A stretch of DNA of 34,745 bases from Sphingomonas segetis (GTDB taxonomy: Bacteria > Pseudomonadota > Alphaproteobacteria > Sphingomonadales > Sphingomonadaceae), in contig NZ_WJSQ01000007.1 of NCBI RefSeq assembly GCF_009720245.1, positions 1 to 34,745 of the forward strand, given 5' to 3'. Below are positions 7,742-34,745 of this stretch, in pieces. A program made the translations under genes and the position numbers. Every line of letters begins with the position of its first letter. The stretch's first letter is position 1. The notes below the pieces were generated by a model. It saw only the letters and a program-made list of their open reading frames with translations. It was not told where the DNA came from and made no database searches.

Positions 7742-9631
7742 CTAGTTTGAAACGAGGTCCGTGCACCGATACGGAAGCGACTCCTCGCTGCAAAAGTCGG
7801 GCATCAGCCGGCTCTCGCGCCAGATCGCGGCCACGCCCCGACTCTTCATCAGCGCCGGGAAGCGCGGGTCGCGGCGAAATCGCGCCATGTAATTGCGGAA
7901 CCAGACATCGGCGAAGACTCCGGACAGCGGCGGTAACTTTAACGCCAGGGCATATGCCTCGTCCGTCCGTCCGAGCATCGCCAGGTGCTGGATGAGGTCG
8001 ATCGTCTCGCCAGGGTCCGCGTCCCGAGCAAGCTGAACCAGGCGGCGAGAAGCTCGGGCTCGATCTCCCGAGGTTCGCGCTGCAATCAGCGCGAGCCATG
8101 CCGAGCGCTGACGGGCGGAATAGCGCGACAGGCTGCTCTGGCCCTTCAGCATGGCGGCTGCCGCGGCGGGGTTGCCGAAACGTGCCTCGATCTCGAATCT
8201 AGGCTCGCCGGTGAACGCGTCGTCAGGCCAGCGACGATAGGCTCCGGCGAGAACCTTTCGCGCCGCCTCCAGTCGGCCCGAATAGGCATAGGCCTCGGCG
8301 AGGTTGCTGTAGGCAGCAGGGACCATCGGCTCCGCTCGGGCGACGTGTTCCGCGAGCGGCAGCAAGTCCGCCACTCGACCGATACTCGCCAATTGCCCGG
8401 CCTGCGCAGTAAGCACGCCCAGATCGTCCGGGTCCGCTCTTGCCGCCTCCTCGAGAAGCCGGTGACGGCCGACCCAGTCCGACGGCGGAAGGGTGTTCAG
8501 CAAGGCGAGATAGGGTCCGGCCTGGTTCGGATCGAGCGCGAGCGCGCGCCGCGCCGCGCTCTCGATTTGCCTGGGCGTCGCGGTCCCACCACCCAGGGAG
8601 CTGCGCCGTGCCAGGGCCAGGGCATATTCCGACCACGCCGCCGCGAAAGTCGGATTCCGCTCCGTCAGGTCTCCGAAGAGGTCCGTGGCCTCAGCCTGCT
8701 GCACGTCGATGTGCTTTACTTCGCATGCCTTGAGAAAAGTCCTCACGGTATCGAGCTCGAGCTGGTTGCGGCGGACCTCGGTCGGTTTGAGACCGCAGGA
8801 CAACACGTCGGCCAGTCGGATGGCGAGTTCCTCGCGCAACGAGTCAATTTCACTCGTCCGACGGACAAAGTTGTCGGACCATAGGATCGCGCCGGTCTTT
8901 ACATCGATCAGGCGGACTGCGGCGTGCACGTCCGCCCCGATGGTTTCCGCGTTTCCGGCCACGGAAAAGACCGCGTGCGCCTTGGCTGGATCGACGATGG
9001 CCAGATGCCGGGCGTTGCCGGCGACGATTTGGGAAACGTCCGCCGACAAAGCGAGGCTCAGCGTCTGTGCTGCGCCGTCGTTCGTGGGCGTGTTCAAGGG
9101 ATCGATCGCGATCGTCGCGGGTGGCGCCGCCTCCGGCGTGCGCTGGCGTGCGACAAGGGTGAGGGTCCCGGCAACGGCAATGATTGCCGCGAGCGACAGC
9201 GCGATCAGCAGAGGTCGGTGCGCCGGCCGGCTGCCATCATCGATGGCTTCGCGTTCGGAACCCGGGGATTGCCGATCCGCTGTCGCCAGCCGGTATCCGA
9301 CGCGCGGAATGGTCTTGATGGTGAAGCCGGCATCGGTTTGCAGCGCGATCTGGCGCAAGCGCGAAAGGACTCGGTGAACCGCATTGTCTCCGACGACCAC
9401 GCCGTCCCAGCAGCTTTCGACCAACTCCTCGCGGGTTACCACGGCGCCATTCGCGCGGGCGAGCGCCACAAGCACCTGCATGACGCGCGGTTCCAGCGTC
9501 TCGCTCCGGCCGTCGGCTTCCACCTGCCGCGTCGACGGATGGACCCTGAGGGCTCCGAGTGTAAACGCCAGTTCACGCGCCAGAACGACGCGGCCGGGTA
9601 TGGCTAGACCGTCGTGCTTCGCCTCCCCCAT
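7742..9631 (-). CDS. CadC/ToxR-type winged-helix membrane regulator with FlgO/TolB-like and TPR domains
   Basis: Predicted one-component membrane transcription factor, 629 residues. Residues 24-116 form an OmpR/PhoB-type winged helix ('LEPRVMQVLVAL', 'VVTREELVESCWDG', then 'TIPRVGYRL'). A single transmembrane helix spans about 140-161. The C-terminal two thirds start with a TolB/FlgO-like alpha/beta region ('AAVRLIDVKTGAILWSDNF', 'LREELAIRLADVL') and continue into TPR-like helical repeats. This suits a DNA-binding domain in the cytoplasm with a periplasmic sensor. The target is unknown; the divergent GFA/alr genes or its own gene are the obvious candidates. The start has only a weak ribosome-binding site. 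The FlgO-TPR part has the same layout as in the TIR genes at 24712-29978. Confidence 0.83.
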   Translation of the reverse strand: MGEAKHDGLAIPGRVVLARELAFTLGALRVHPSTRQVEADGRSETLEPRVMQVLVALARANGAVVTREELVESCWDGVVVGDNAVHRVLSRLRQIALQTDAGFTIKTIPRVGYRLATADRQSPGSEREAIDDGSRPAHRPLLIALSLAAIIAVAGTLTLVARQRTPEAAPPATIAIDPLNTPTNDGAAQTLSLALSADVSQIVAGNARHLAIVDPAKAHAVFSVAGNAETIGADVHAAVRLIDVKTGAILWSDNFVRRTSEIDSLREELAIRLADVLSCGLKPTEVRRNQLELDTVRTFLKACEVKHIDVQQAEATDLFGDLTERNPTFAAAWSEYALALARRSSLGGGTATPRQIESAARRALALDPNQAGPYLALLNTLPPSDWVGRHRLLEEAARADPDDLGVLTAQAGQLASIGRVADLLPLAEHVARAEPMVPAAYSNLAEAYAYSGRLEAARKVLAGAYRRWPDDAFTGEPRFEIEARFGNPAAAAAMLKGQSSLSRYSARQRSAWLALIAARTSGDRARASRRLVQLARDADPGETIDLIQHLAMLGRTDEAYALALKLPPLSGVFADVWFRNYMARFRRDPRFPALMKSRGVAAIWRESRLMPDFCSEESLPYRCTDLVSN

Positions 9632-10067: not shown

Positions 10068-11096
10068 ATGGACCGCCCGCTGCGCCTGACAATCGACCGC
10101 ACGGCGATCCAGGAAAACTGGCGCTGGCTTCAGGATCGTGCCGGCGTGCCCGCCGGTGCAGCGGTGAAGGCCGACGGCTATGGTCTCGGCGCGCGCGAGG
10201 CCGCGCATGCGCTCTACGAAGCCGGGTGCCGCGACTTTTTCGTCTCGAGCTGGGCCGAGGCCGAAGCGCTCGGGCCGATGCCGCTGGGGACCAGCGTTGT
10301 CGTTCTTCACGGCGCCGGGCCCAAGGATGCGGAGGCGGCCCTCTCACTCCTCGCGCGGCCGTGCCTCAATACCCCCGGCCAAGTTGCGCGCTGGAAAGAG
10401 GTCGCGCCCGAACGACCGTGCGACGTAATGGTCGACACGGGGATGAACCGGCTGGGGCTGAGGCCCACCGAGATCGGGCTGCTCGACGGGCTTGCGATCG
10501 AAACGTTGCACAGCCATCTCGCGCGCGCCGACGAGGACAGTGCAATGAACGGCATGCAGCTGGAGCGGTTTCGGACCGTCGCCTCGGCAGTTCCGGCGAA
10601 GCGCTATGCGTTCGCGAACAGCGCCGGGATTTGTCTCGGCCGCGAGTACAGCTTCGACCTCGTCCGTCCCGGGCTCTCGGTTTACGGCGGCGTTCCGCGC
10701 GTCGAGGCGGAAGGGAACATCCGCGACGTGTTCCGCGTCGATGCCGAGATCGTCCAGCGGCGCCTGATCCCTGCGGGGGAAAGCTGCGGCTACGGTGCGA
10801 CGTTCATCGCCGACGAGGATACCGAGGCCGCGATCCTCAACATCGGCTATGCCGACGGTTATCTGCGCGGCTTTTCGTCGCGCGGCTCGGCGTTCGCCGG
10901 CGAGTTCGCGCTGCCGGTGCTCGGCCGGGTGTCGATGGATCTGATCGCCGTCGGCTGCGGAGCCGCACCCGGTCTCAAGGAAGGCGATTGGGTCGAGATC
11001 GATTACGATTTGCCGTCCGCTTCAAAGCAGTCCGGCCTTTCGCAATACGAGCTTTTGACGACCCTCGGCTCGCGCTTCGAGCGGCGGTGGGTTTGA
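10068..11096 (+). CDS. alr: Alanine racemase
   Basis: PLP enzyme converting L- to D-alanine for peptidoglycan, 342 residues. 'AVKADGYGLG' carries the PLP lysine (Lys34), and 'CGYGATF' carries Tyr242, the expected second catalytic base from the partner subunit. 'VDTGMNRLGL' and 'LGRVSMDLIAV' are further family blocks. The protein ends in the conserved 'QYELLTTLGSRFERRWV', so it is complete though slightly short. The last 122 bases are antisense to the 3' end of nth. The start codon is an ATG with a GGAG about 13 bases upstream. Confidence 0.95.
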   Translation: MDRPLRLTIDRTAIQENWRWLQDRAGVPAGAAVKADGYGLGAREAAHALYEAGCRDFFVSSWAEAEALGPMPLGTSVVVLHGAGPKDAEAALSLLARPCLNTPGQVARWKEVAPERPCDVMVDTGMNRLGLRPTEIGLLDGLAIETLHSHLARADEDSAMNGMQLERFRTVASAVPAKRYAFANSAGICLGREYSFDLVRPGLSVYGGVPRVEAEGNIRDVFRVDAEIVQRRLIPAGESCGYGATFIADEDTEAAILNIGYADGYLRGFSSRGSAFAGEFALPVLGRVSMDLIAVGCGAAPGLKEGDWVEIDYDLPSASKQSGLSQYELLTTLGSRFERRWV

Positions 11097-11742
11097 CCCG
11101 CTCCTCCGGAGGCGGGGTCTTCGGCTTGTAGCGGCACAGGTCGACCACGGGGCAGCGCCAGCATTCGGGCAGCCGCGCCCTGCAGGTATAACGGCCGTGC
11201 AGGATCAGCCAGTGGTGCGCGTCGCGCCGGAACGGCTGGGGCACGATCTTCTCGAGCTTCGTTTCGACCTCGTCGACGGTCTTGCCGGGCGCAAGCCCGG
11301 TCCGGTTGCAGACGCGGAAGACGTGCGTGTCGACGGCAAAGGTTTCTTCGCCAAAAGCGGTGTTGAGGACAACATTTGCGGTCTTGCGGCCGACGCCGGG
11401 CAGCGCCTTCAGCTCTTCGCGGGTGCGTGGGACTGCCCCGCCATGACGCTCGATCAGCGCCTGGCTGAGCGCGATGACGTTCTTGGCCTTGGTGTTGAAC
11501 AGGCCGATGGTCTTGATCGCGTCGCGCAGAGCGTTTTCGCCGAAGTCGACCATTTGCTGCGGCTTGGTGATGCGCTCGAACAGCGGACGGCAGGCGATGT
11601 TAACGCTGGCATCGGTGGCTTGGGCCGAAAGCACGACCGCCACAAGTAGCTGGTAGGGATTTCCGGATTCCAGCTCGGTCGTCGGCGACGGATTTTCTTC
11701 GGCGAGCCGACGGAAGAATTCGAAAACCTCGTCCCGCTTCAC
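10975..11742 (-). CDS. nth: Endonuclease III (DNA glycosylase/AP lyase) with basic tail
   Basis: Base-excision repair enzyme that removes oxidised pyrimidines, 255 residues. The helix-hairpin-helix 'LPGVGRKTANVVLN' carries catalytic Lys120, and 'VDTHVFRV' carries Asp138. The 4Fe-4S cluster cysteines are 187, 194, 197 and 203 (C-x6-C-x2-C-x5-C). From memory these positions match E. coli Nth. E. coli Nth ends near residue 211; here a basic Arg/Lys/Ser/Pro-rich tail of about 45 residues follows. From residue 216 on it is encoded antisense to alr. The GTG start overlaps the aminotransferase stop (GTGA), so nth is the last gene of a tightly coupled reverse operon. Confidence 0.95.
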   Translation of the reverse strand: MKRDEVFEFFRRLAEENPSPTTELESGNPYQLLVAVVLSAQATDASVNIACRPLFERITKPQQMVDFGENALRDAIKTIGLFNTKAKNVIALSQALIERHGGAVPRTREELKALPGVGRKTANVVLNTAFGEETFAVDTHVFRVCNRTGLAPGKTVDEVETKLEKIVPQPFRRDAHHWLILHGRYTCRARLPECWRCPVVDLCRYKPKTPPPEERVKPTAARSASRGSSKARIAKGRTALKRTANRNRSRPNRLP

Positions 11743-24711: not shown

Positions 24712-26463
24712 GTGGCCCGCGTATTCCTGAGCTACGCACGCGAGGATGCCGATTCCGCCAGGCAATTGGCGGAAGCGATCGGTCGCGCTGGACACGAGAT
24801 ATGGTGGGACCGTCACCTCCACGGCGGCTCACAGTTCGCGACCGAAATCGACAAAGCGCTGAAGAATGCGGAGGCCGTGGTCGTCCTGTGGACGGATTCG
24901 TCGGTCAATTCGGCGTGGGTGCAGGACGAAGCCGCAGAAGGGCGCGACACCGGCCGCCTGGTGCCGATCAGCCTCAACGGCTGCCGGCCGCCCCTCGGCT
25001 TTCGCCAGTTCCACACTGTAGAGTTGGGCGCCTGGAATGGTGATGGCGATCCCGCGCATCTCGACGAGCTGCTGGAGGCGATCGGCAAGACCGCGGGAAC
25101 GGCAGCCGCTGCAACGCCGTCGACCACGCCTGCCGACGCCCCGCCCGAGCGAAAGATGTCGATCTGCGTGTTGCCCTTCGTGAACATGAGCGGTGAGCCC
25201 GAGCAGGAATATTTCAGCGACGGGATCAGCGAGGACATCATCACCGACCTGTCGAACGTTTCCGCTCTGTCGGTGGTGGCCCGCAACACCTCCTTCACGT
25301 TCAAGGGCGAATCTATCGACGTGAAGGAGATTGCCGAGAAGCTCTGTGTCACGCACGTGCTCGAAGGAAGCGTCCGCAAAGCGGGAGACAGGGTGCGGAT
25401 CACGGGACAGCTGATCGACGGCGCCAAGGGCGACCATGTCTGGGCCGCGCGCTATGACCGGGACCTCACCGACATCTTCGCCATCCAGGACGAAATCTCG
25501 AAAGCGATTGTCGAGGCGCTGAAGGTCAAGCTTCTGCCCGCGGAGAAGAAGAAGATCGAGCACCGCGGAACTTCCAATGTCGAAGCATACGACTTGTACC
25601 TGATGGCGCGGCAGCAATGGATCAGCGGCACCTTCGGAACCGTTCGCCGGGAGCAGTCGATCGCGCGTCTTTGCAGGCAGGCGACGCTGCTCGACCCGGA
25701 GTACGCGCAAGCCTGGGCGCTGATGGGGCTCGCGCAGCTCGAGCTGCGATTCGTCCATGGCCACGACGAGGACGCGCTTTCCGCAGCCGAGACGGCGTTG
25801 GAGATCAACCCAGGCCTCGCCGAAGCTCACTGCATCAAGGCTCGCTATCTGGAGGAGGAAAGCCGCACCGAAGAGGCAGAGAAACAGATTCGGACCGCTC
25901 TGAAGCTCGATCCGGAGTCATGGGAAGTGAATCGTGAAGTCGCGCGCATGCTCTTCCGCCACGGTCACATTCGCGAGGCTATTCCTTTTTTCGAGAAGGC
26001 TGCCTCGATGAACGATACCGATTGGCACAACCCGCTCATGCTTATGACCTGCTATGAAGGTATCGGTGACGAGGCGCAGCTCCGCCAGGCAGCCCTCAAG
26101 GTGCGCGACAGGGTGCAAATAGCGGTCGCCGCAGACCCGACCAACGGAACTGCCCTTGCCTCCGGTGCACACGCGCTCGGCGAATTGGGCGACAAGGACC
26201 GGGCGCGCGAGTGGATGCGCCGTGCGCTCGTTCTCGATCCTGACAATCTCGTGATGCGGTACAACAGCGCGTGCGCCATTCTGCGCCGCTTCGGCGATAA
26301 TCAAGAGGCGCTGAAGACACTGCAGCCGTTTTTCGAGGCGGTGACGAGCACGACCTGGGTGTGGCATGCGGAGGCGGATCCCGACATGGGCCCCATCCGC
26401 GACGATCCGCTGTTCAAGGAAATGCTTTCCGCCGCCAAGCAGCGGCTGGGCATGGCGGAATAA
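24712..26463 (+). CDS. TIR - FlgO/TolB-like - TPR protein (copy 1 of 3)
   Basis: Predicted soluble signalling protein, 583 residues. Residues 1-115 are a TIR domain: 'FLSYAREDADSARQLA', the BB-loop-like 'WWDRHLHGG', 'AEAVVVLWTDSSVNSAWVQDE', then 'RLVPISL'. Glu73 in 'SAWVQDE' aligns with the catalytic Glu of TIR NADases (SARM1 'DWVHKE'). After an Ala/Thr/Pro linker (118-147), residues 149-275 are a FlgO/TolB-like domain (COG5616 type): 'ICVLPFVNMS', 'FSDGISEDIITDLS', 'THVLEGSVRKAGDRVRITGQLID', 'IFAIQDEISKAI'. Residues 280-580 are TPR-like helices, such as 'AWALMGLAQLELRF' and 'WMRRALVLDPDN'. No signal peptide or membrane helix is present. The GTG start follows GGAGGAGGG. Whether it cleaves NAD, makes a signal or acts as a scaffold cannot be told. 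Confidence 0.87.
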   Translation: MARVFLSYAREDADSARQLAEAIGRAGHEIWWDRHLHGGSQFATEIDKALKNAEAVVVLWTDSSVNSAWVQDEAAEGRDTGRLVPISLNGCRPPLGFRQFHTVELGAWNGDGDPAHLDELLEAIGKTAGTAAAATPSTTPADAPPERKMSICVLPFVNMSGEPEQEYFSDGISEDIITDLSNVSALSVVARNTSFTFKGESIDVKEIAEKLCVTHVLEGSVRKAGDRVRITGQLIDGAKGDHVWAARYDRDLTDIFAIQDEISKAIVEALKVKLLPAEKKKIEHRGTSNVEAYDLYLMARQQWISGTFGTVRREQSIARLCRQATLLDPEYAQAWALMGLAQLELRFVHGHDEDALSAAETALEINPGLAEAHCIKARYLEEESRTEEAEKQIRTALKLDPESWEVNREVARMLFRHGHIREAIPFFEKAASMNDTDWHNPLMLMTCYEGIGDEAQLRQAALKVRDRVQIAVAADPTNGTALASGAHALGELGDKDRAREWMRRALVLDPDNLVMRYNSACAILRRFGDNQEALKTLQPFFEAVTSTTWVWHAEADPDMGPIRDDPLFKEMLSAAKQRLGMAE

Positions 26464-26469
26464 TCGGGC

Positions 26470-28218
26470 GTGGCGCGCATCTTTCTCAGCTACGCACGAG
26501 AGGACAGCGACGCCGCGAAGGAGCTGGCGGACGAGATCGGCCGCGCCGGCCACGAGGTGTGGTGGGACCAGCACATCCAGGGAGGCTCGCGCTTCAGCCG
26601 CGCGATCGACCAGGCGCTCAAGGATGCCGAGGCGGTCGTGGTCCTGTGGTCGGACACTTCCGTGGAATCGGCCTGGGTCCAGGACGAAGCGGCGGAGGGC
26701 CGCGACAGCGGGCGGCTCGTGCCGGTGCTCCTCGACCGCTGCAAGGCGCCGCTCGGCTTCCGCCAATTCCAATCGGTCGACATGTCGCGGTGGAGGGGCG
26801 GCGAGGGAGCGGAGCTCACCACGTTGCTCGAGGCGATCGCAAACACCGCAACGCCGGCGCAGGCGGAGCAGAAGGGCGCGGCAAGCACCAAGCCAGCGCC
26901 GACGACCCAGTTCTCCATCTGCGTGCTTCCGTTCGTGAATATGAGCGGCGATCCCGAACAGGAATATTTCAGCGACGGAATCACCGAGGACATCATCACC
27001 GATTTGTCCAAAGTCTCCGCGCTGCTGGTAATCGCGCGCAACACCGCCTTCGCCTTCAAGGGCAAGGTGATGGACGTGAAGGATGTTGCGCGTTCGCTCG
27101 ACGTCACCCACGTCATGGAAGGCAGCGTGCGCAAGGCCGGCGACCGCGTCAGGATTACCGCGCAGTTGATCGACAGCGCGACCGGTGGGCATGTGTGGGC
27201 CGATCGCTACGACCGCGACCTGACCGATATTTTCGCGATACAGGACGAGATTTCGAAGGCGATTGTCGCGGCGCTGCGCGTAAAGCTGCTGCCCGACGAG
27301 AAGAAAGCGATCGAGGCGCGTGGCACATCGAGCGTCGAGGCTTACAACCTGTACCTGATGGCACGGCAGCAATGGGTGACGGGCGACTATAGCGATGTCC
27401 GCCGCGACGAAACGATCGCGCGAATTTGCCGCCAAGCGCTGTCGTTCGATCCCAATTACGCCCAGGCTTGGGCACTGATGGCGCTTGCGCAAACGCAATT
27501 GCTCCTGATGCACGGAAGAGACGTCGACGCGCTTCCCGCCGCCGAGCGGGCGCTGGAAATCAATCCCGACATCGCCGAAGCCCATTGCGTCGTCGCGCAA
27601 CTGCTCGAGGAGCAGGGCAAGCAGGCCGAAGCGAATGAAAAAATGCAGACGGCGATGCGCCTGGACGGAGAATCGTGGGAGGTGAACCACGAGGCCGCGC
27701 GGCTGATGTTTCGACAGGGCCGAATTCGCGAAGCAATCCCGCTGTTCGAAAAGGCCGCTTCGCTGATGCAAAGCGACTGGCACAGTCCGATGATGCTGAC
27801 GACCTGCTATCAGAGCGTCGGCGACCAGGAGGCTTTGCTTCGGTTTGCGCGATTGGCGATCGAGCGCGCCGAGATAGCGGTTGCGAAAGACCCCACGAAC
27901 GCCCAAGCGCTCGCAGGCGGGTCAACCGCGCTCGCGCTCATTGGCGAGGAGCGCAGGGCGCGGGACTGGATCGATCGGGCACTGCTGGTCGATCCCGACA
28001 ATGTCATCATGCGATACAATCTCGCCTGTTCGCTGGCGGCTCGCCTGGAGGACAGAGATAGGGCGATCGAAGTGATGGAGCCTTATTTCGAGCGCGTGGC
28101 CAGCCTGACCCGAATCCGGCATCTGAGCGCTGATCCGGACATGGAGAACATTCGCGACGATGCGCGCTTTCAGGAGATGCTCGCCGCCGCCAAGCAGCGG
28201 CTCGGCATGTCGGTCTAG
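26470..28218 (+). CDS. TIR - FlgO/TolB-like - TPR protein (copy 2 of 3)
   Basis: Middle paralogue, 582 residues, starting at a GTG six bases after copy 1. TIR 1-115: 'FLSYAREDSDAAKELA', 'WWDQHIQGG', and 'SVESAWVQDEAAEGRDSGRLVP' with Glu73 kept. A linker of about 30 residues precedes the FlgO/TolB-like domain ('ICVLPFVNMSGDPEQEY', 'DGITEDIITDLS', 'THVMEGSVRKAGDRVRIT'). TPR-like repeats follow to the end ('WALMALAQTQLLLMHGRD', 'WIDRALLVDPDNV'). Copy-specific residues lie in the TIR loop, the linker and the TPR faces (for example 'TGDYSDV' where copies 1 and 3 have 'SGTFG'), so the copies may bind different partners. It lacks a strong ribosome-binding site (only CGGGC), which suggests translational coupling to copy 1. 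Confidence 0.87.
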   Translation: MARIFLSYAREDSDAAKELADEIGRAGHEVWWDQHIQGGSRFSRAIDQALKDAEAVVVLWSDTSVESAWVQDEAAEGRDSGRLVPVLLDRCKAPLGFRQFQSVDMSRWRGGEGAELTTLLEAIANTATPAQAEQKGAASTKPAPTTQFSICVLPFVNMSGDPEQEYFSDGITEDIITDLSKVSALLVIARNTAFAFKGKVMDVKDVARSLDVTHVMEGSVRKAGDRVRITAQLIDSATGGHVWADRYDRDLTDIFAIQDEISKAIVAALRVKLLPDEKKAIEARGTSSVEAYNLYLMARQQWVTGDYSDVRRDETIARICRQALSFDPNYAQAWALMALAQTQLLLMHGRDVDALPAAERALEINPDIAEAHCVVAQLLEEQGKQAEANEKMQTAMRLDGESWEVNHEAARLMFRQGRIREAIPLFEKAASLMQSDWHSPMMLTTCYQSVGDQEALLRFARLAIERAEIAVAKDPTNAQALAGGSTALALIGEERRARDWIDRALLVDPDNVIMRYNLACSLAARLEDRDRAIEVMEPYFERVASLTRIRHLSADPDMENIRDDARFQEMLAAAKQRLGMSV

Positions 28219-28226
28219 CGGCAGGG

Positions 28227-29978
28227 ATGGCACGCATCTTCCTCAGCTACGCCCGCGAAGACGCCGATTCGGCGAGACGAATCGCGCAAGCGGTTGGCGA
28301 CGCCGGGCACGAGGTCTGGTGGGACGAGCAAATCCACGGCGGATCGCGCTTCACTTCGGCCATCGACCAAGCGCTCAAGAACGCCGAAGCTGTCATCGTC
28401 TTGTGGTCGAAGGTTTCGGTCGAATCGGCCTGGGTCCAGGACGAAGCCGCCGAAGGCCGCGATAGTGGCCGGCTCGTACCGGTCCTGATCGGCGAGACCA
28501 AGCCGCCGCTGGGCTTCCGCCAGTTCCAGTCGATCGACCTGTCGCGCTGGAGCGGCCGCGACAGCCCCGAGCTGCACGGCCTCATCGACGCGATTGGGAA
28601 GATCGTCGGTAGCAGCGGGACCGCCAAACAGGCCCAGGCGGAAAGCGAGGGCAAACCCGACACGGCCTCCATCTGCGTGCTTCCGTTCGTCAACATGAGC
28701 GGCGACCCGGAGCAGGAATATTTCAGCGACGGCATCTCCGAGGACATCATCACCGACCTCTCCAAGGTTTCGGCGCTGCGGGTGATCGCCCGCAACAGCG
28801 TCTTCAACCTCAAGGGTCGGGCGATCGACATCAAGGAAGTCGCCGAGATGTTCGGCGTCAGCTACGTTCTGGAAGGAAGCGTCCGCAAGGCGGGAGACCG
28901 GGTGCGGATCACCGCGCAGCTGATCGACGGCAAGGGCGAGGATCACGTCTGGGCCGACCGCTACGACCGCGACCTCAACGACATTTTCGCCATCCAGGAC
29001 GAGATTTCCAAGGCGATCGTCGCGGCACTCCGCGTGAAGCTGTTGCCGAACGAAAGGAAGGCCATCGAGCGGCGCGGGACCAGCAATATCGAAGCTTACA
29101 AGCTCTACCTAATGGCGCGCCAGCACCTGATCAGCGGCACGTTTGGCGACATCCGCCGCGACGAGGCGATCGTCCGCATTTGCCGGCAGGCGACGGCGAT
29201 GGACCCCGACTACGCCCAGGCATGGGCGCTGATGGCGCTCGCCCAATCCGAGCTGCGTTTCTGGCATGGCAAGAAAGAAGATGCGCTGCCCGCCGCCGAG
29301 CGCGCTCTGTCGATGAACCCCGATTTGCCCGAGGCGCGCTGCGTCAAGGCCCGTTATCTCGAGGAGGAAGGGCGGCAAGAAGAGGCGAACAGGGAAATCG
29401 AAACCGCGCTGCGCCTGGATCCCGAATCGTGGGAAGTGAATCGCGAGGCGGCTCGGCTGATGTTCCGCGAAGGCCGGATCGACGCGGCCATTCCCTTATT
29501 CGAGAAAGCCGCGTCGTTGATGGACTCCGACTATCACAATGTGGCGATGCTGATGACTTGCTACGAATCGGTCGGAGACCATGACAAATTGATGGATGCG
29601 GCGAAGCGGACGCTCGAGCGCGCCGAGGCGGCGATCCAGAAAGACCCGACGAACGGCGCCGCGCTAGCCGTGGGTTCTGCTGCGCTGGCCCTGTTCGGCG
29701 AAGCCGATCGCGCAAACGAATGGATGCAGCGCGCGCTGTTGCTCGACCCCGACAATCTCTCGATGCGTTACAATTTGGCGTGCGCGCAGCTCACCAATTT
29801 GAAGGACAAGGAAGGCGCGCTGGCGATGCTCCAGCCGTTCTTCGAGCAGGTGACCGCACCTGCCCACATCCGTCACCTGGAGGTCGATCCGGACATGAAC
29901 GCTATCAGAGACGATGACCGGTTTCAGCAAATGCTGGCCGGCGCAAAGGCCCGGATGGGCATCGACAGCGCAGCCTAG
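28227..29978 (+). CDS. TIR - FlgO/TolB-like - TPR protein (copy 3 of 3)
   Basis: Last paralogue, 583 residues, with an ATG eight bases after copy 2 and a GCAGGG site. TIR 1-115: 'FLSYAREDADSARRIA', 'WWDEQIHGG', 'SVESAWVQDEAAEGRD' with Glu73 kept. The FlgO/TolB-like domain follows ('ICVLPFVNMSGDPEQEY', 'DGISEDIITDLSK', 'SYVLEGSVRKAGDRVRIT', 'DLNDIFAIQDEIS'), then TPR-like repeats ('WALMALAQSELRFWHGKKE', 'WMQRALLLDPDNLSMRYN'). The C-terminal block 'DPDM.(A/E/P)IRDD..F..ML' is shared by all three. In the TPR part it reads closer to copy 1 ('LISGTFG', 'CVKARYLEEE'). It converges with the FecR-like gene after 33 bases, with no clear terminator. Confidence 0.87.
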   Translation: MARIFLSYAREDADSARRIAQAVGDAGHEVWWDEQIHGGSRFTSAIDQALKNAEAVIVLWSKVSVESAWVQDEAAEGRDSGRLVPVLIGETKPPLGFRQFQSIDLSRWSGRDSPELHGLIDAIGKIVGSSGTAKQAQAESEGKPDTASICVLPFVNMSGDPEQEYFSDGISEDIITDLSKVSALRVIARNSVFNLKGRAIDIKEVAEMFGVSYVLEGSVRKAGDRVRITAQLIDGKGEDHVWADRYDRDLNDIFAIQDEISKAIVAALRVKLLPNERKAIERRGTSNIEAYKLYLMARQHLISGTFGDIRRDEAIVRICRQATAMDPDYAQAWALMALAQSELRFWHGKKEDALPAAERALSMNPDLPEARCVKARYLEEEGRQEEANREIETALRLDPESWEVNREAARLMFREGRIDAAIPLFEKAASLMDSDYHNVAMLMTCYESVGDHDKLMDAAKRTLERAEAAIQKDPTNGAALAVGSAALALFGEADRANEWMQRALLLDPDNLSMRYNLACAQLTNLKDKEGALAMLQPFFEQVTAPAHIRHLEVDPDMNAIRDDDRFQQMLAGAKARMGIDSAA

Positions 29979-30011: not shown

Positions 30012-30692
30012 CTAATTCGACTTGCTTGCGCTTGCGACAAGCAGGTCGAGCTGGTTCTGGCAGCCGTTCTCGATCAGCACCTTCGCAGTCCCGACGAGAT
30101 CGTTCGGCACGGCCCCCACCGTCACTACGTCGACGCTGCTCTTGTCGCCGGTGCCCGACCATTCGATCTGATATTGCTCGCCGCTCTTGACCGCCAGCGT
30201 GCCGGGCCAGGCCGTAAGCGCCTTGCCCGCAGCCCAGCTCAGCTTCTGCTTGCTCCCGTCGGAGGCCTGGACCTCGACGCTCGCCTCCGCCTCGGTATTC
30301 GGCCGCCACAGTTGCAGCTTGCTCGCGTCCGTGACGCAGACCTTGCCGCTCTGGGTCACGTCGATGTCCCAGATGCTCGGGTTATGCGCGACTTCGGCGG
30401 CACGGAGCGCTCCGAAGCGGCCGCGCTGGCTGGCGGCGGAGGCGAGGCTGATCTGGCTGGCCTCGAAGTTCCCGGGACCGCGCAGCGTCTTTGCCGCGCC
30501 GGGCCCGAGGATGGTCACCACGTCACCGCCCTGGAGCGTGATCTTGGCGCTGGCGGGAAGCGTCTTGCCCGGCGGATAGGCCTTGGCCGAGGGACCAAGC
30601 GATTTGACCACCACGACATTGGCCAGCGCCGCTGTCGAACTCAGGGCGATGGCAATCGCTGCGCCCCACAGCATCGGCTTCGCTCGCATCAT
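30012..30692 (-). CDS. Secreted FecR-like hypothetical protein
   Basis: Exported protein of 226 residues. The start at 30692 (MMRAKPMLWG) is set by AAGGAG six bases upstream; the frame reaches 30722 but overlaps the preceding gene. A signal peptide ends near 'STAALA'. The following part resembles a FecR-type beta domain: 'SAKITLQGGDVVTILGPGAAKTLRGPG'. The rest has beta-strand-like stretches with two cysteines ('GKVCVTDA', 'ENGCQNQL') that could form a disulfide. No anti-sigma N-terminus is present, so it is not a FecR regulator. Function unknown; last gene of a three-gene envelope operon. Confidence 0.72.
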   Translation of the reverse strand: MMRAKPMLWGAAIAIALSSTAALANVVVVKSLGPSAKAYPPGKTLPASAKITLQGGDVVTILGPGAAKTLRGPGNFEASQISLASAASQRGRFGALRAAEVAHNPSIWDIDVTQSGKVCVTDASKLQLWRPNTEAEASVEVQASDGSKQKLSWAAGKALTAWPGTLAVKSGEQYQIEWSGTGDKSSVDVVTVGAVPNDLVGTAKVLIENGCQNQLDLLVASASKSN

Positions 30693-30702
30693 TCCAACTC
30701 CT

Positions 30703-31407
30703 TCATTGCGCGTTCGCGACATTGTACTTGATGGCTTCGGCGCGCGTCAGGCAGCGCCGCGTCGATCCGTCTCCCGGCCCGTCAGGGACCGCCTTCTGCT
30801 GGTACATGATTTCGGTCAGCAGCTTTCGCGAGACGCCCATGCGGATCAGGAAGTCATTATCCTCGCTGGCGAGCAATGCCGAGTCCTGCTCGACGTCGCC
30901 GATCAGCCCGATCGCGTGATCGGTGCCCTTGGCGAGCTCCGACCGCACGGCTTGCTTGTCGGAGACGTGCGTGAACATGTGGACCGCGAAGATACCGCCT
31001 TCGTCGACGTAGCGGATGGCCCCGCCCATGAACATGAAATTGCAGGCGGAGAAGCAGGCCCAGCCATCCGGGATCCTGGTCGGAATGCCGCTCGCCCGAA
31101 TAACCTTCCCGGCGGCGTTGCCCGCGCGCGCGTCGCCGCCCGGCGACCGGAGCCAGATCTCCTGCACCGGATCGTTCGCCTTGAGTGCATCCTGCAGCCG
31201 CGCCGCAACATCCTCGTCGATCTGCCCCTCCGCCTTGAGCACTCGGACGCCGCCCACGGTCTCCAGCGTGAACTTCATGGCCGGGTAGGTCGACCAGTTG
31301 AGATATTGCGGGCAGGTCGGGTTGGCGGGATCCGCCGGCTGCGCCGCGGCCACGTTCACGAGCAGAAGGCAGGCCCCCAGGCCCATTTTGATGCGCCCCG
31401 AAATCAC
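30703..31407 (-). CDS. Periplasmic ClpP-like protein (COG3904 type)
   Basis: Predicted exported ClpP/crotonase-fold protein of 234 residues. The GTG at 31407 lies one base after the stop of the upstream gene, and the product has a signal peptide ending near 'NVAAAQ'. The fold is indicated by 'AEGQIDEDVAARL', 'EIWLRSPGGDARAGN' and 'GWACFSACNFMFMGGAIRYVDEGGIFAVHMF'. Ser120 in 'CFSAC' and His143 in 'AVHMF' are where ClpP-like enzymes have their catalytic Ser and His. The substrate is unknown. Cys32 in 'PTCPQYL' and others could form disulfides. The FecR-like gene follows. Confidence 0.8.
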   Translation of the reverse strand: MISGRIKMGLGACLLLVNVAAAQPADPANPTCPQYLNWSTYPAMKFTLETVGGVRVLKAEGQIDEDVAARLQDALKANDPVQEIWLRSPGGDARAGNAAGKVIRASGIPTRIPDGWACFSACNFMFMGGAIRYVDEGGIFAVHMFTHVSDKQAVRSELAKGTDHAIGLIGDVEQDSALLASEDNDFLIRMGVSRKLLTEIMYQQKAVPDGPGDGSTRRCLTRAEAIKYNVANAQ

Positions 31408-31408
31408 G

Positions 31409-31951
31409 TCACACCCTGACGTATGCGCTCGCGCCCTTGGCCCTGCACATCTTCTTCGGCACGGTCGTCTCTTCGCCATCGACGATCACCACGTCGGTGA
31501 CCGTCAGGCATTGGCCGCCATCGGCGAGCTGCTGCTGGCCAGTGACCTTCGAGGTGCCGGAGACGTTCGGCCGGCTTTCGCTAGTCCAGCTGACTTCGGT
31601 CCCGACGCCGCCGCGAACGGCCTGATCGGTCGCCTTGGCCGCTTGCTGCTGCTCCTTGCAGTCGAGCAGCTTGATGAGCTCGTCGCCGAGGTAGGATGCG
31701 GCCGGCATTGCGAGCGACCAAACCTGGCTGCTGACGCCGGCGCGGCCGAGTACGCCGCCGGCCAGACCTCCGAGCACGCTGCCGAACATCGACCGCTTGG
31801 CCTTCTTCTGCGCCGTGTCCTGGCACTTTTGGGGGTTGGCGGGTTGCGCCTGCGCATTGGGGTTCTGGGTCTGCGCGACAGCCTCGCCGCCGTTCAGGAC
31901 CGCTACCGGCGCGACCGCCAGCAGCCCGGTCAAAACCAAGGCACGCAACAT
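31409..31951 (-). CDS. Glycine-zipper surface-antigen-like exported protein
   Basis: Exported protein of 180 residues with a signal peptide (1-26, ending AVA). 'SMFGSVLGGLAGGVLGRAG' (about 54-72) is a glycine zipper as in the rickettsial 17-kDa surface antigen family. The C-terminal part 'VSWTSESRPNVSGTSKV...CLTVTDVVIVDGEETTVPKKMCRA' has the usual paired cysteines of that family. It lacks a lipobox Cys, so it is probably periplasmic or outer-membrane associated without a lipid anchor. First gene of the three-gene operon, with a GGGGGGAG ribosome-binding site and a good promoter upstream. Confidence 0.75.
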   Translation of the reverse strand: MLRALVLTGLLAVAPVAVLNGGEAVAQTQNPNAQAQPANPQKCQDTAQKKAKRSMFGSVLGGLAGGVLGRAGVSSQVWSLAMPAASYLGDELIKLLDCKEQQQAAKATDQAVRGGVGTEVSWTSESRPNVSGTSKVTGQQQLADGGQCLTVTDVVIVDGEETTVPKKMCRAKGASAYVRV

Positions 31952-31981
31952 TGACTCCCCCCCTTTATCGCTTCGTGGAGT

Positions 31982-32010
31982 GAATTATCCTTTGATTTTC
32001 ATAGGGTCAA
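31982..32010 (-). promoter_or_regulatory. Sigma-70-like promoter of the surface-antigen operon
   Basis: On the reverse strand TTGACC (-35, at 32005-32010) is followed after 17 bases by TAATTC (-10, at 31982-31987), with GATAAT overlapping it. It lies about 30 bases ahead of the ATG at 31951 and is the best promoter match I found in the window. Confidence 0.55.
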
Positions 32011-32035
32011 TGAAAGCAACGAGAATTGAGAGGGA

Positions 32036-33961
32036 TCAGGCCGTGCCGCGGGAGCGCTTCGCCGAAACCGTGCCGGGGCCGTCGCCGAGCATCGCTTCAA
32101 TGGCCTCGATCCGCCGGCTGTTGTCGGCGATGAGGTCAATGACCTCCGCCTCGCGCGCCTCGCGCTTGATCACGGTGCGAATTGCGCGCGCGATTTCTTC
32201 CGAAACCTCGGCGAGCGCGTTCTGCTCGGCGCGGCTCGGCAAGGAGCCGTCGGGGCGCGGGCCGACCAGGAGGAAGCCGATCGGCTCCTCGTCTCCCGAG
32301 CTCGGAACGAGCGGCACCCGGATCGGGAAGAGCTTGTCGGATGGCTCGCAAATGTCGGTCCGGTAATCCTGCGCGAAGACCGACGTCCGCCAGGTTTCGA
32401 CCTCATCCTTGCCGAGACCGCGAACGTTGAGCACGCAGCCGTTGACGATCATGGCGGCGCGCACGGCACGCACCCCTCGGTCGACCTGCGCCAGGATCTC
32501 GCCGATCATTTCGTCGAGTGAAGCCGTCTCGCGCATGTCACGCACGCTTTGCGGCAGGTCGTTGCGTAGCAGGAACAGGTTCTTCTGGAACTTCCTTTCC
32601 GACCAGCGCTGGACCCGCTCCTGGATCGGGTTGACCATGATCGTCGCGAGCGCCGCCGCGAAGATGATTGGTCCCTGGCTGTTGGTGTTTCCGGAATAAT
32701 TGTAGATGAACTGTTTGACCGCGTCCCCGGCCGCCGCGAAAATCGCCGCGACCCCCAGCGTGATCACCGCGAAATTCACCGAACGGCCGATGACGATCTC
32801 GGCGTCGTAGAGCCGATACCGCAGAAGCGCGATCAGCAAGCCGACCTGAAGGAAGAGCATGGCGAATGCGAAGCTGAGGCCCGACGCCATCTCGACGAGC
32901 AGCTGTGCTCCGAAGCTGTCGGTCGACCATTTGAGAGAATCGCAGACGATCGAGATGCAGCGCAGCACCGCGTAAGCGCTGATCCCGAACAGGGCCCAGC
33001 GGATCTGTTGCTTTTGCTCGCTCGAGTCGGTCCTTTTCAGCCGACGCAGCATGGCGAGCACGCCGATGATCATGAAGCAGATGAAATAGGTCTGGTAGAT
33101 CGTACCGCGGAGAAACATCAGCAGCGGCAGGCAGGCGATCAGCCCGACCACACGCCACGACAGATTGCCGTGGGGGAACAGCAGGATGCCGGTCAGGAGC
33201 AGGATGTTGCCGAGGTCGTAGAGAGCGACATTGAAGTCGCGCGGAAGCCCCATCGCCGTCAGGAACACCGTCGAGGGCTGCTCCGCGGCAATGTTGAGGA
33301 GCACGGCGAGTGACAGCAGCGAACTCACGATGTCGCGCGCATTGCGGCGGTGGAGCAGCCACGCAGCCCACAGCAGGAACGGGTAGAAGAAGACGTGGAG
33401 CAGGTCGATGAAGCTGAGCACGGTGGGCGAGATACCGAGCGCGCGGGCACCGGCGTCGACATGCTGCTCGCCGGTCGTGACGGTCACGTCGCGCACTCGC
33501 CCGTCGGGGTCACGCACCGTCAGCGGGATTTCCGATTGGCCTTCGGCGAACACCACGTTGCCCATCAGATTGTAGGCGGGATCGTTGGCGTGCTCCGCGA
33601 GCGCCTTCTCGTTGAAGGGCATGCTCTTCGGCAGCGGGATTCCGTAAATGGCGATGATATGGTCGCCTGGAATCAGGCCGCTATCGGCGGCATGGGGTCC
33701 GACGGTGAAACGCACGACCGTCGCGTCGCGCGGCGACACAGCGAATCCCGCGCGGCTTCCAAGGAAGAGCTGCGAGTTGTTCGGCTTCTCCGTGTAGCGG
33801 TAGTAGAATCCGATAACCGGACCGGCGATCGCGAGCACCAGCACAAGCGCCCACACCGCCGTGAACAACCGATAGCCGAGCGTGTTGAACTTCGGCACGA
33901 CCGGGGGCAGCCGGAACCTGCCTTTCAGCGCCTGGTCGGTCCTCGGCAAGGCAAGCAGCAT
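32036..33961 (-). CDS. Multi-TM sensor-like protein with PDZ and GAF-like domains, no kinase
   Basis: Inner-membrane protein of 641 residues. TM1 is about 32-53, then a periplasmic PDZ-like region (about 65-165, 'SGLIPGDHIIAIYGIPL'). About eight more helices lie between 180 and 445. 'LRYRLYDAEIVIGRSVNFAVI' (380-400) closely resembles the helix-linker motif of 7TM histidine kinases. The cytoplasmic part (about 470-605) looks GAF-like ('EEPIGFLLVGPRPDGSLPSRAEQNALAEVSEEIARAI'), and the protein ends in a short coiled stretch. No HisKA, HATPase, cyclase or GGDEF motif follows, so it must signal through a partner or by another route. Function is not known. Confidence 0.72.
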   Translation of the reverse strand: MLLALPRTDQALKGRFRLPPVVPKFNTLGYRLFTAVWALVLVLAIAGPVIGFYYRYTEKPNNSQLFLGSRAGFAVSPRDATVVRFTVGPHAADSGLIPGDHIIAIYGIPLPKSMPFNEKALAEHANDPAYNLMGNVVFAEGQSEIPLTVRDPDGRVRDVTVTTGEQHVDAGARALGISPTVLSFIDLLHVFFYPFLLWAAWLLHRRNARDIVSSLLSLAVLLNIAAEQPSTVFLTAMGLPRDFNVALYDLGNILLLTGILLFPHGNLSWRVVGLIACLPLLMFLRGTIYQTYFICFMIIGVLAMLRRLKRTDSSEQKQQIRWALFGISAYAVLRCISIVCDSLKWSTDSFGAQLLVEMASGLSFAFAMLFLQVGLLIALLRYRLYDAEIVIGRSVNFAVITLGVAAIFAAAGDAVKQFIYNYSGNTNSQGPIIFAAALATIMVNPIQERVQRWSERKFQKNLFLLRNDLPQSVRDMRETASLDEMIGEILAQVDRGVRAVRAAMIVNGCVLNVRGLGKDEVETWRTSVFAQDYRTDICEPSDKLFPIRVPLVPSSGDEEPIGFLLVGPRPDGSLPSRAEQNALAEVSEEIARAIRTVIKREAREAEVIDLIADNSRRIEAIEAMLGDGPGTVSAKRSRGTA

Positions 33962-34027: not shown

Positions 34028-34745
34028 CTATGTGCTTGAGCCGCCTTCGCTCTCGATGCCCTGCTCGCCATAGCGCGATTTGATGAAGCGGCCCTGCGTC
34101 TCGAACGCCGCCATGTCCTGCCGGGCAAGCTGTTCCGACACGTCCGACAGTGCCGCACGCGCTGCGGCGAGGCTCTCGACCAGCCGCTCATCCACCGTCT
34201 TGCCTTCGCCGTCCTGCTCCTGCCGATAGGCGCGGGGCACGTTCGCGTAGCGCTCGATCAGGCCGGGCAGGTGGATCGACATCAGCCGGCGCGCATCCTG
34301 GGCGCACGGGTCCAAAGTATCGACGCGATCGAGCGTCTGCTTGAGCGCCGGGAGGGTCGCACTGATCGCGTCGAGCTGCGGCTGCGCCGTCGCGGGAAGC
34401 CCCCGGCGGACGTGGTAGAGATACGAATCGAACCGTTCGACCATGGCGCCATTGGGAAGATCGGCCGTGGGGGCAGGGGCCGACACGACCTGCCTGCCGC
34501 CGCGTGCGATGAGGACGCCGGCCACGACGACGCTCGCAATCACGGCTGCAAGGAAGCCGAAGAGACCGATCGGGTTGAAAAAGCCGATGAAGATCGCCGC
34601 AAGCCAGACGACCACGACGCCCGCCGCCACCTTCGCCGCCGTGCGGCCCAGCCCCGCGTTCAGCCGCTCCCGTTCGCGCCGGGCGGCAGCCCGGACGGGG
34701 CCGCCGCGCTGGTCGAGCTGCTGCGTGACGCGGTCGAATCGCGCA
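34028..34745 (-). CDS. Membrane protein, XpaC-like (5' end outside window)
   Basis: The frame stays open to the window edge, so the N-terminus is missing; the visible part is about 238 residues. It starts with a basic cytoplasmic stretch ('RFDRVTQQLDQ', 'ARRERERLNAG'), then two hydrophobic segments ('VVVVWLAAIFIGFF' and 'FLAAVIASVVVAGVLIA'). A long helical domain follows ('YLYHVRRGLPATAQPQL', 'TLPALKQTLDRVDTL', 'LPGLIERYANVPRAY', 'SLAAARAALSDVSEQLARQDMAAFETQGRFI'). That pattern resembles the 5-bromo-4-chloroindolyl phosphate hydrolysis (XpaC) family, often found with TelA-type genes, but I hold this loosely. A GTG at 34630 is only an internal codon. Confidence 0.6.
   Translation of the reverse strand, partial: ARFDRVTQQLDQRGGPVRAAARRERERLNAGLGRTAAKVAAGVVVVWLAAIFIGFFNPIGLFGFLAAVIASVVVAGVLIARGGRQVVSAPAPTADLPNGAMVERFDSYLYHVRRGLPATAQPQLDAISATLPALKQTLDRVDTLDPCAQDARRLMSIHLPGLIERYANVPRAYRQEQDGEGKTVDERLVESLAAARAALSDVSEQLARQDMAAFETQGRFIKSRYGEQGIESEGGSST

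Follow-up and report, generated by a model that had tools for sequence, protein, structure and literature searches.

Tandem TIR-TolB-like-TPR genes in Sphingomonas segetis and the association of their family with a SLOG-SLATT membrane protein

A head-to-tail array of three TIR genes

The stretch of DNA analyzed here (hereafter the window) covers 34,745 nucleotides of Sphingomonas segetis (assembly GCF_009720245.1, contig NZ_WJSQ01000007.1, positions 1 to 34,745) and carries three consecutive plus-strand genes whose products combine an N-terminal TIR domain, a TolB-like middle domain and a C-terminal TPR region. Copy 1 (24712..26463, 583 amino acids, GTG start), copy 2 (26470..28218, 582 amino acids, GTG start) and copy 3 (28227..29978, 583 amino acids, ATG start) share this architecture and are separated by 6 and 8 bases respectively, as a preliminary description made from the sequence alone had proposed for three collinear paralogues of about 583 residues. 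Relative to copy 1, identity amounts to 64% for copy 2 and 65% for copy 3. When the copies are compared domain by domain, the TolB-like part is 78-80% identical, the TIR domain 68-76% and the second half of the TPR region, where the three proteins diverge fastest, 52-55%. Pairwise ratios of nonsynonymous to synonymous divergence (dN/dS) amount to 0.13-0.23 for the TIR domain, the TolB-like domain and the first TPR half and to 0.36-0.43 for the second TPR half, with one dS value (2.08) near saturation; because these ratios are low, all three copies look coding and constrained by purifying selection.

The TIR domain was recognized by Pfam TIR_2 in copies 1 to 3 with E-values of 4.1e-22, 1.3e-26 and 2.8e-25, several Pfam TPR models scored above cut-off, and hydropathy revealed no membrane helix in any of the three copies (best 19-residue mean 1.02-1.26). 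In a structure model of copy 3 (mb85a0c2cea8d; predicted local distance difference test, pLDDT, 84.1; predicted template modeling score 0.58), the TIR domain spans approximately residues 1-124 (28227..28598; the other copies are parallel), the middle domain residues 147-275 (28665..29051) and the TPR region residues 286-583 (29082..29975). The profile searches suggested in the preliminary description thus upheld its TIR and TPR assignments, as hydropathy did the lack of a membrane helix, but they did not uphold FlgO on its own: Pfam FlgO stays under its cut-off in all three copies (14.9-16.4 bits versus 22.6). The same model scores 45.6 bits, above cut-off, in a relative with a like middle domain (locus L123). 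Given the sub-threshold FlgO score, weak NCBIfam matches to TolB (copies 1 and 3), CadC (all three) and HilA (copies 2 and 3), and structural matches that include the periplasmic domain of CadC, TolB/FlgO/CadC-like is a fair name for it, FlgO by itself being unproven. A flagellar FlgO function was set aside, since FlgO falls under cut-off and no flagellar gene appeared in the Pfam matches of the window open reading frames (ORFs) that were scanned. This middle domain is the most conserved part of the proteins, with a mean column entropy of 0.80 versus 1.21 for the TIR domain.

Glu73, within the motif SAWVQDE, is identical in all three copies (codons 24928..24930, 26686..26688 and 28443..28445, plus strand), as previously noticed. 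Among 74 TIR rows from relatives, 73 are aligned at this position and all 73 carry glutamate, whereas the W69 column of the same 73 rows holds 67 W, 3 F, 2 Y and 1 N. Both residues fall in register with the WxxxE motif of the solved bacterial TIR domains 7uxr, 7uwg/8g83 (AbTIR) and 3h16. This glutamate is the catalytic residue of AbTIR and SARM1. A search profile built from 11 TIR domains and run against structures retrieved AbTIR 8g83 (E-value 1.2e-8) and SARM1 (1.4e-4 to 2.3e-4), and the copy 3 model could be superimposed on the SPARTA TIR 8ifl (Z 16.3, root-mean-square deviation (rmsd) 2.1 over 125 residues) and on SARM1 6o0u (Z 15.2, rmsd 2.2 over 120). The lack of a TIR match or the loss of the pocket around Glu73 had been named as observations that would overturn the preliminary description; the TIR_2 match is strong and the glutamate is kept. 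The array proteins therefore have the fold and the helix-borne glutamate of TIR NADases, enzymes that cleave nicotinamide adenine dinucleotide (NAD), and are predicted to share this activity.

Variable arrays on a chassis with exchangeable outputs

The genome (2.85 Mb in 328 contigs, 97% complete) contains 18 TIR_2 matches, 17 of which lie above cut-off, and at least 12 ORFs combining TIR and TolB-like domains on the contigs fetched, one being cut by a contig end. The survey of the tandem arrangement and its neighbors that the preliminary description had proposed revealed arrays of two to six such genes in 13 of 52 loci with a complete TIR-TolB ORF (duplicates of one region removed, several loci sharing a genome) and a recurrent neighbor encoding a SLOG-SLATT protein, described below. 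Overall, array size ranges from 1 to 6. The triplet was therefore rejected as a complete three-gene system, since array size varies and one- and two-copy sites exist; the idea of a self-contained three-copy system did not survive the size of the family within this genome, the range of arrays elsewhere and the location of the likely partner outside the window.

To place the copies, a tree of 131 TolB-TPR regions was used (quick search, Shimodaira-Hasegawa-like approximate likelihood ratio test (SH-aLRT) support only), in which the nearest rows come from Sphingomonas sp. nzgw538 (L061) and S. hankyongi (L131). One clade (SH-aLRT 99) unites copy 1 with its orthologues in S. hankyongi, at L061:11721-13526 and on contig C323 of its own genome, and the sister of copy 2 is L061:9959-11764 (SH-aLRT 84). 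As copies 1 and 2 thus cluster with genes of other species, the array copies appear to predate the divergence of these species. Sphingomonas sp. nzgw538 carries a two-copy array at the same site, preceded in both genomes by era, rnc, lepB, pgi, gor, a FAD gene and caiB, and directly followed in L061 by a homologue of window 34028-34630. Downstream of the array, the window holds four minus-strand ORFs (30012-33961), including one for a 641-residue multi-helix protein; none of them has a Pfam match at E ≤ 0.01 or a counterpart at the L061 site.

We also considered whether the array might be a mobile defense island. No tRNA or Rfam match was found in the window, and no TIR-bearing form appeared among the matches listed for plasmids, phages and viral contigs. 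Of 494 plasmid records, a single one reaches 80% coverage of the query, and the 25 listed all start at residue 99 or later, while each of nine matching viral contigs matches from residue 124 on only. Together with the site conserved in L061, these plasmid and viral matches without the TIR part led us to reject this possibility.

In other proteins the TolB-TPR half serves as a chassis for cyclase, kinase or DNA-binding outputs. Ten relatives scanned with Pfam bear as N-terminal output a class III cyclase (six), a kinase, an OmpR-type DNA-binding domain, a TIR domain or no named domain (one each). The 131 tree rows comprise 74 TIR, 41 cyclase, 7 DNA-binding and 3 kinase outputs, the last two labels each coming from a profile seeded by one sequence, along with 4 rows cut by contig ends and 2 unknown. 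At least 9 changes between TIR and cyclase, and 18 over the four outputs, are required on the tree. Many relatives outside the clade of the window display a hydrophobic segment between the TIR and TolB-like domains, so that both soluble and membrane-anchored forms exist. The array proteins resemble CadC and the cyclase-TolB-TPR proteins, presumably of the chassis type named COG5616, in having a TolB/CadC-like domain followed by TPR-like repeats, and the CadC periplasmic domain 3ly9 matches the copy 3 model (Foldseek E-value 3.2e-6; Z 15.0 but rmsd 14.5). They differ in their output, since the N-terminus is a TIR domain instead of the OmpR-type DNA-binding domain of CadC or a cyclase, and in being devoid of a membrane helix. 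The window itself encodes a CadC-like relative (7742-9631, minus strand) with an OmpR-type DNA-binding domain, a hydrophobic segment and a TPR-like region. Elsewhere, ORFs with two or three successive TolB-TPR modules were observed (L123:367-4377, which starts with a cyclase domain, L134:2752-6018 and L138:1979-4426).

Linkage and co-occurrence with a SLOG-SLATT protein

Clustering of the neighbors of TIR genes returned one recurrent non-housekeeping gene, encoding a protein of about 600 residues. Its helices match Pfam DUF4231 above cut-off in L072 and L074, with SLATT_1 and SLATT_3 just under, and a model of the L074 protein (pLDDT 75.8) has an N-terminal SLOG domain of the YpsA/DprA type. 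This domain is closest to YpsA 2nx2 (Foldseek E-value 2.2e-4; Z 15.2, rmsd 2.7 over 161 residues), followed by weaker fold matches to DprA (Z 12.0), LOG (Z about 9), TRPM2 (Z 7.7) and the EcThsA structure 8wc0 (Z 7.4). SLATT and SLOG systems were reportedly described by Burroughs et al. in 2015.

The SLOG-SLATT gene adjoins a soluble TIR-TolB-TPR gene in six genomes, the stop-to-stop ORFs lying 4-179 bp apart; the two genes are co-directional with the TIR gene first in G046, G051 and G053 and convergent in G047, G048 and G049. In G044 a contig end precludes judging adjacency. The anchored form, present in 9 of 199 family genomes, lies 84-317 bp from a SLOG-SLATT gene in four genomes (G435, G329, G364 and G391) and 2.4 kb away in G454. 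Conversely, among 20 SLOG-SLATT loci picked by match score before their neighbors were seen, 18 have a TIR gene within the sequence retrieved, in most cases for a TIR-TPR protein of about 740 residues or a TIR-FHA protein, and two (L220 and L229) have none.

Across the 199 family genomes, 24 of which hold a SLOG-SLATT gene, this gene was detected in all 5 genomes with the soluble form (Fisher p 1.7e-5), in 6 of the 9 with the anchored form (p 1.1e-4) and in 10 of the 13 with either form versus 14 of the 186 others (p 2.1e-8, or 1.4e-7 when the window genome is left out). A similar trend was found in 250 genomes from the order of G049, where all 4 genomes with the soluble form possess it versus 64 of 250 overall (p 0.004, or 0.016 without the genome of the query). 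In the genus of the window it occurs in 6 of 6 genomes with the soluble form, but 19 of 25 genomes have it overall, making this a weak test. Among 20 named genomes holding the soluble form, 17 contain SLOG-SLATT homologues, as surveyed with three different queries and thresholds. Since the surveys scored the best few candidates per genome, their counts and absences are lower bounds; the SLOG-SLATT gene of G454, for instance, was missed at the survey threshold and recovered by a profile.

Several other genes were noticed in these neighborhoods. A TIR-FHA gene overlaps or abuts the SLOG-SLATT gene in G011, G020 and Sphingomicrobium nitratireducens (L167:7734-10504, L168:7611-10422 and L164:7780-10706, with TIR and FHA named by Pfam for L168). 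Small proteins encoded near SLOG-SLATT and TIR-TPR genes, up to four per locus, have a common C-terminal tail, [ND]P.IKN(x0-6). The strict pattern was found in 21 of 5,600 ORFs of SLOG loci versus 0 of 19,473 elsewhere, and a looser one in 27 versus 3, L072 and L166 being one region. Examples are L222:4374-5268, L223:7609-8127, L226:7276-8192 and 10723-11484, and L215:6847-7782, with further cases in L217, L210, L224, L227, L229, L158, L072/L166 and, in the window genome, L040:4962-5423. That proteins beside a TPR protein have this tail in common suggests a recognition tag. In four genomes, including that of the window (contig C223), the gene immediately upstream of a soluble TIR-TolB-TPR gene encodes a SCO4226-like protein (PF14026) of about 90 residues (L035:6254-6568, L049:7675-7980, L050:2-613 and L067:1328-1735). 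Finally, in two genomes of the genus a GGDEF-EAL gene (L051:4059-5825, identified by Pfam, and L059:5167-6903, 75% identical to it) converges with anchored TIR genes at a distance of 3-9 bp, one of these being an array of four.

A candidate Thoeris-like pathway and its alternatives

In Thoeris, ThsB TIR proteins make a nucleotide that is sensed by ThsA, which bears a SLOG or macro domain, and according to the excerpted text of PMC11204291 one ThsA may serve several ThsB. The TIR-TolB-TPR proteins are similar in that TIR proteins, often several, may be coupled to one effector sensing a TIR-made nucleotide. They differ in the fusion of TIR to TolB-TPR, in a partner made of SLOG and SLATT-like helices instead of SIR2-SLOG or TM-macro (transmembrane-macro) and, in the window genome, in the location of this partner on another contig. 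ThsB_TIR scores above cut-off in copy 2 (23.8 versus 21.2 bits) and just under in the other two (20.1 and 20.8), and PADLOC ThsB models match weakly, through the TIR domain. No ThsA of either type was found among 23 Pfam-scanned window ORFs, immediate neighbors included, a search that did not extend to the rest of the genome. A second parallel is found in the pairs of TIR and two-transmembrane SLATT proteins of firmicute phages predicted by Aravind and colleagues, in which the SLATT helices are predicted effectors controlled by ADP-ribose derivatives; the excerpted text of PMC9503650 does not mention TolB-TPR fusions or proteobacterial arrays. The Group 6 TIR-TPR proteins also have an N-terminal TIR domain and C-terminal TPRs, but are mainly actinobacterial and longer than 700 residues, and a TolB-like domain is mentioned 0 times in PMC7075850. 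In the open-licence subset of PubMed Central we found no description of TIR-TolB-TPR proteins or of a link to SLOG-SLATT, which agrees with the earlier impression that this architecture had not been described.

On balance we favor, with modest confidence, a Thoeris-like pathway in which a messenger derived from NAD by the TIR domain would be detected by a membrane effector of the SLOG-SLATT type. The array proteins would be soluble signaling enzymes with the role that the sensor/cyclase component has in Thoeris-type systems. Their TPR superhelix, probably together with the TolB-like domain, would bind a trigger, upon which the N-terminal TIR domains would come together and cleave NAD+. This would release ADP-ribose or an isomer of cyclic ADP-ribose, to be sensed by the SLOG domain of the separate membrane protein, whose helices would then change permeability so that the cell stops or dies. 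Several diverged TIR genes would feed one effector, the TPR end tuning each to another trigger; that the copies respond to different triggers, as the preliminary description had suggested, fits the fast second TPR half and the apparent age of the copies. In the window genome, the array would act in trans through the single SLOG-SLATT gene found, on contig C306. The earlier proposal of a sensor-activated TIR signal thus stands as regards the sensor-like architecture and the linkage of the family, elsewhere, to a nucleotide-sensor and membrane-effector gene, but that partner lies outside the window.

A number of observations weigh against this pathway. The array sits amid housekeeping genes at a site common to another Sphingomonas (L061), and the window yielded no SLOG-SLATT gene. 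The single match on C306 stands beside another TIR-TPR gene, and for these two reasons the link in this genome is one that we infer. This copy (L040) was assigned by homology and has no SLATT match in Pfam at E ≤ 0.01, and no PADLOC model matches SLOG-SLATT proteins. Adjacency, although found for the soluble form (six genomes) and the anchored form (four), does not hold for the window array nor for any soluble form in the Sphingomonas-type genomes read; both genes are present but apart in G045, G050, G216 and G277, and the partner was not seen within about 1.5 kb of the soluble form in G505-G507. Among the 20 named genomes, no match was obtained in G043, G502 (a 1.6 Mb metagenome-assembled genome) and G503; in G504 and G505 the match is confined to the membrane half. 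Furthermore, the co-occurrence tests are uncorrected for kinship and the cyclase-chassis control, present in 1 of 199 genomes, was uninformative. G046 is labeled Acidobacteriaceae, but nadA on its contig L071 is 90% identical to that of a Natronospirales metagenome-assembled genome, making both label and independence doubtful; G046 and G051 may be non-independent.

The strongest alternative is that the array proteins are physiological second-messenger sensors and take no part in defense, the soluble TolB-TPR part reading a metabolic or envelope cue and TIR being another messenger-making output. We regard this as a serious possibility, a little short of even, because the chassis is common with class III cyclases (and, in the same scans, a kinase and an OmpR-type DNA-binding domain), with repeated exchanges between TIR and cyclase on the tree, and because the locus is stable, chromosomal and not seen on phages. 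However, the soluble form has a patchy distribution, with 5 of 199 family genomes carrying it, and SLATT and SLOG are predicted effectors and sensors of conflict systems in the excerpt of PMC9503650. It is somewhat unlikely, in our estimate, that the association is a by-product, with SLOG-SLATT serving TIR-TPR or TIR-FHA genes of its own and co-residing with TIR-TolB-TPR genes in TIR- or defense-rich genomes and neighborhoods: many SLOG-SLATT genes do lie beside other TIR types, in the window genome as well, and the soluble form lacks adjacency in Sphingomonas-type genomes, but direct adjacency to the soluble form in six genomes and to the anchored form in four, with several gene orientations, argues otherwise.

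The remaining alternatives concern the TIR domain itself. A triggered TIR could drain NAD+ without any partner, as SARM1 or SPARTA do, and such a self-contained abortive enzyme would be compatible with the fold and glutamate of NAD-depleting TIR domains and with the absence of a partner gene adjoining the window array; as it does not explain why SLOG-SLATT genes recur beside members of the family, we hold it to be unlikely. Some TIR domains act as scaffolds, and Glu73 could be kept for structure with no NAD chemistry involved, which appears very improbable given that Glu73 (73 of 73 aligned rows) is better conserved than W69 (67 of 73).

Returning to the Thoeris-like pathway, a broader version of it can be put forward tentatively, and we consider it doubtful as a whole: an NAD-messenger network in proteobacteria in which one SLOG-SLATT effector per genome would hear a changeable repertoire of TIR sensors, comprising TIR-TPR and TIR-FHA proteins, soluble arrays and anchored TIR-TolB-TPR proteins. 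The soluble and anchored forms would have arisen by output exchange on the cyclase/kinase chassis, the arrays would be old specialized sensors with TPR ends for different triggers, and the PxIKN-tail proteins may be a trigger or adaptor in TIR-TPR loci.

TIR-to-SLOG signaling is itself known; new would be its use with this sensor and a SLATT-type effector. For bacterial TIR proteins, both trigger recognition and the effectors that respond to the messengers have been worked out in only a few systems. If the pathway is correct, the family would provide a new type of sensor whose chassis also serves second-messenger cyclases, and the known ThsA types would have a SLOG-SLATT membrane protein as their counterpart. 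Array size, with up to six tandem TIR genes, would then be a natural experiment on the sensor repertoire feeding one effector, and the array, with its relatives beside a predicted signal-sensing membrane protein, may point to a little-explored bacterial alarm system.

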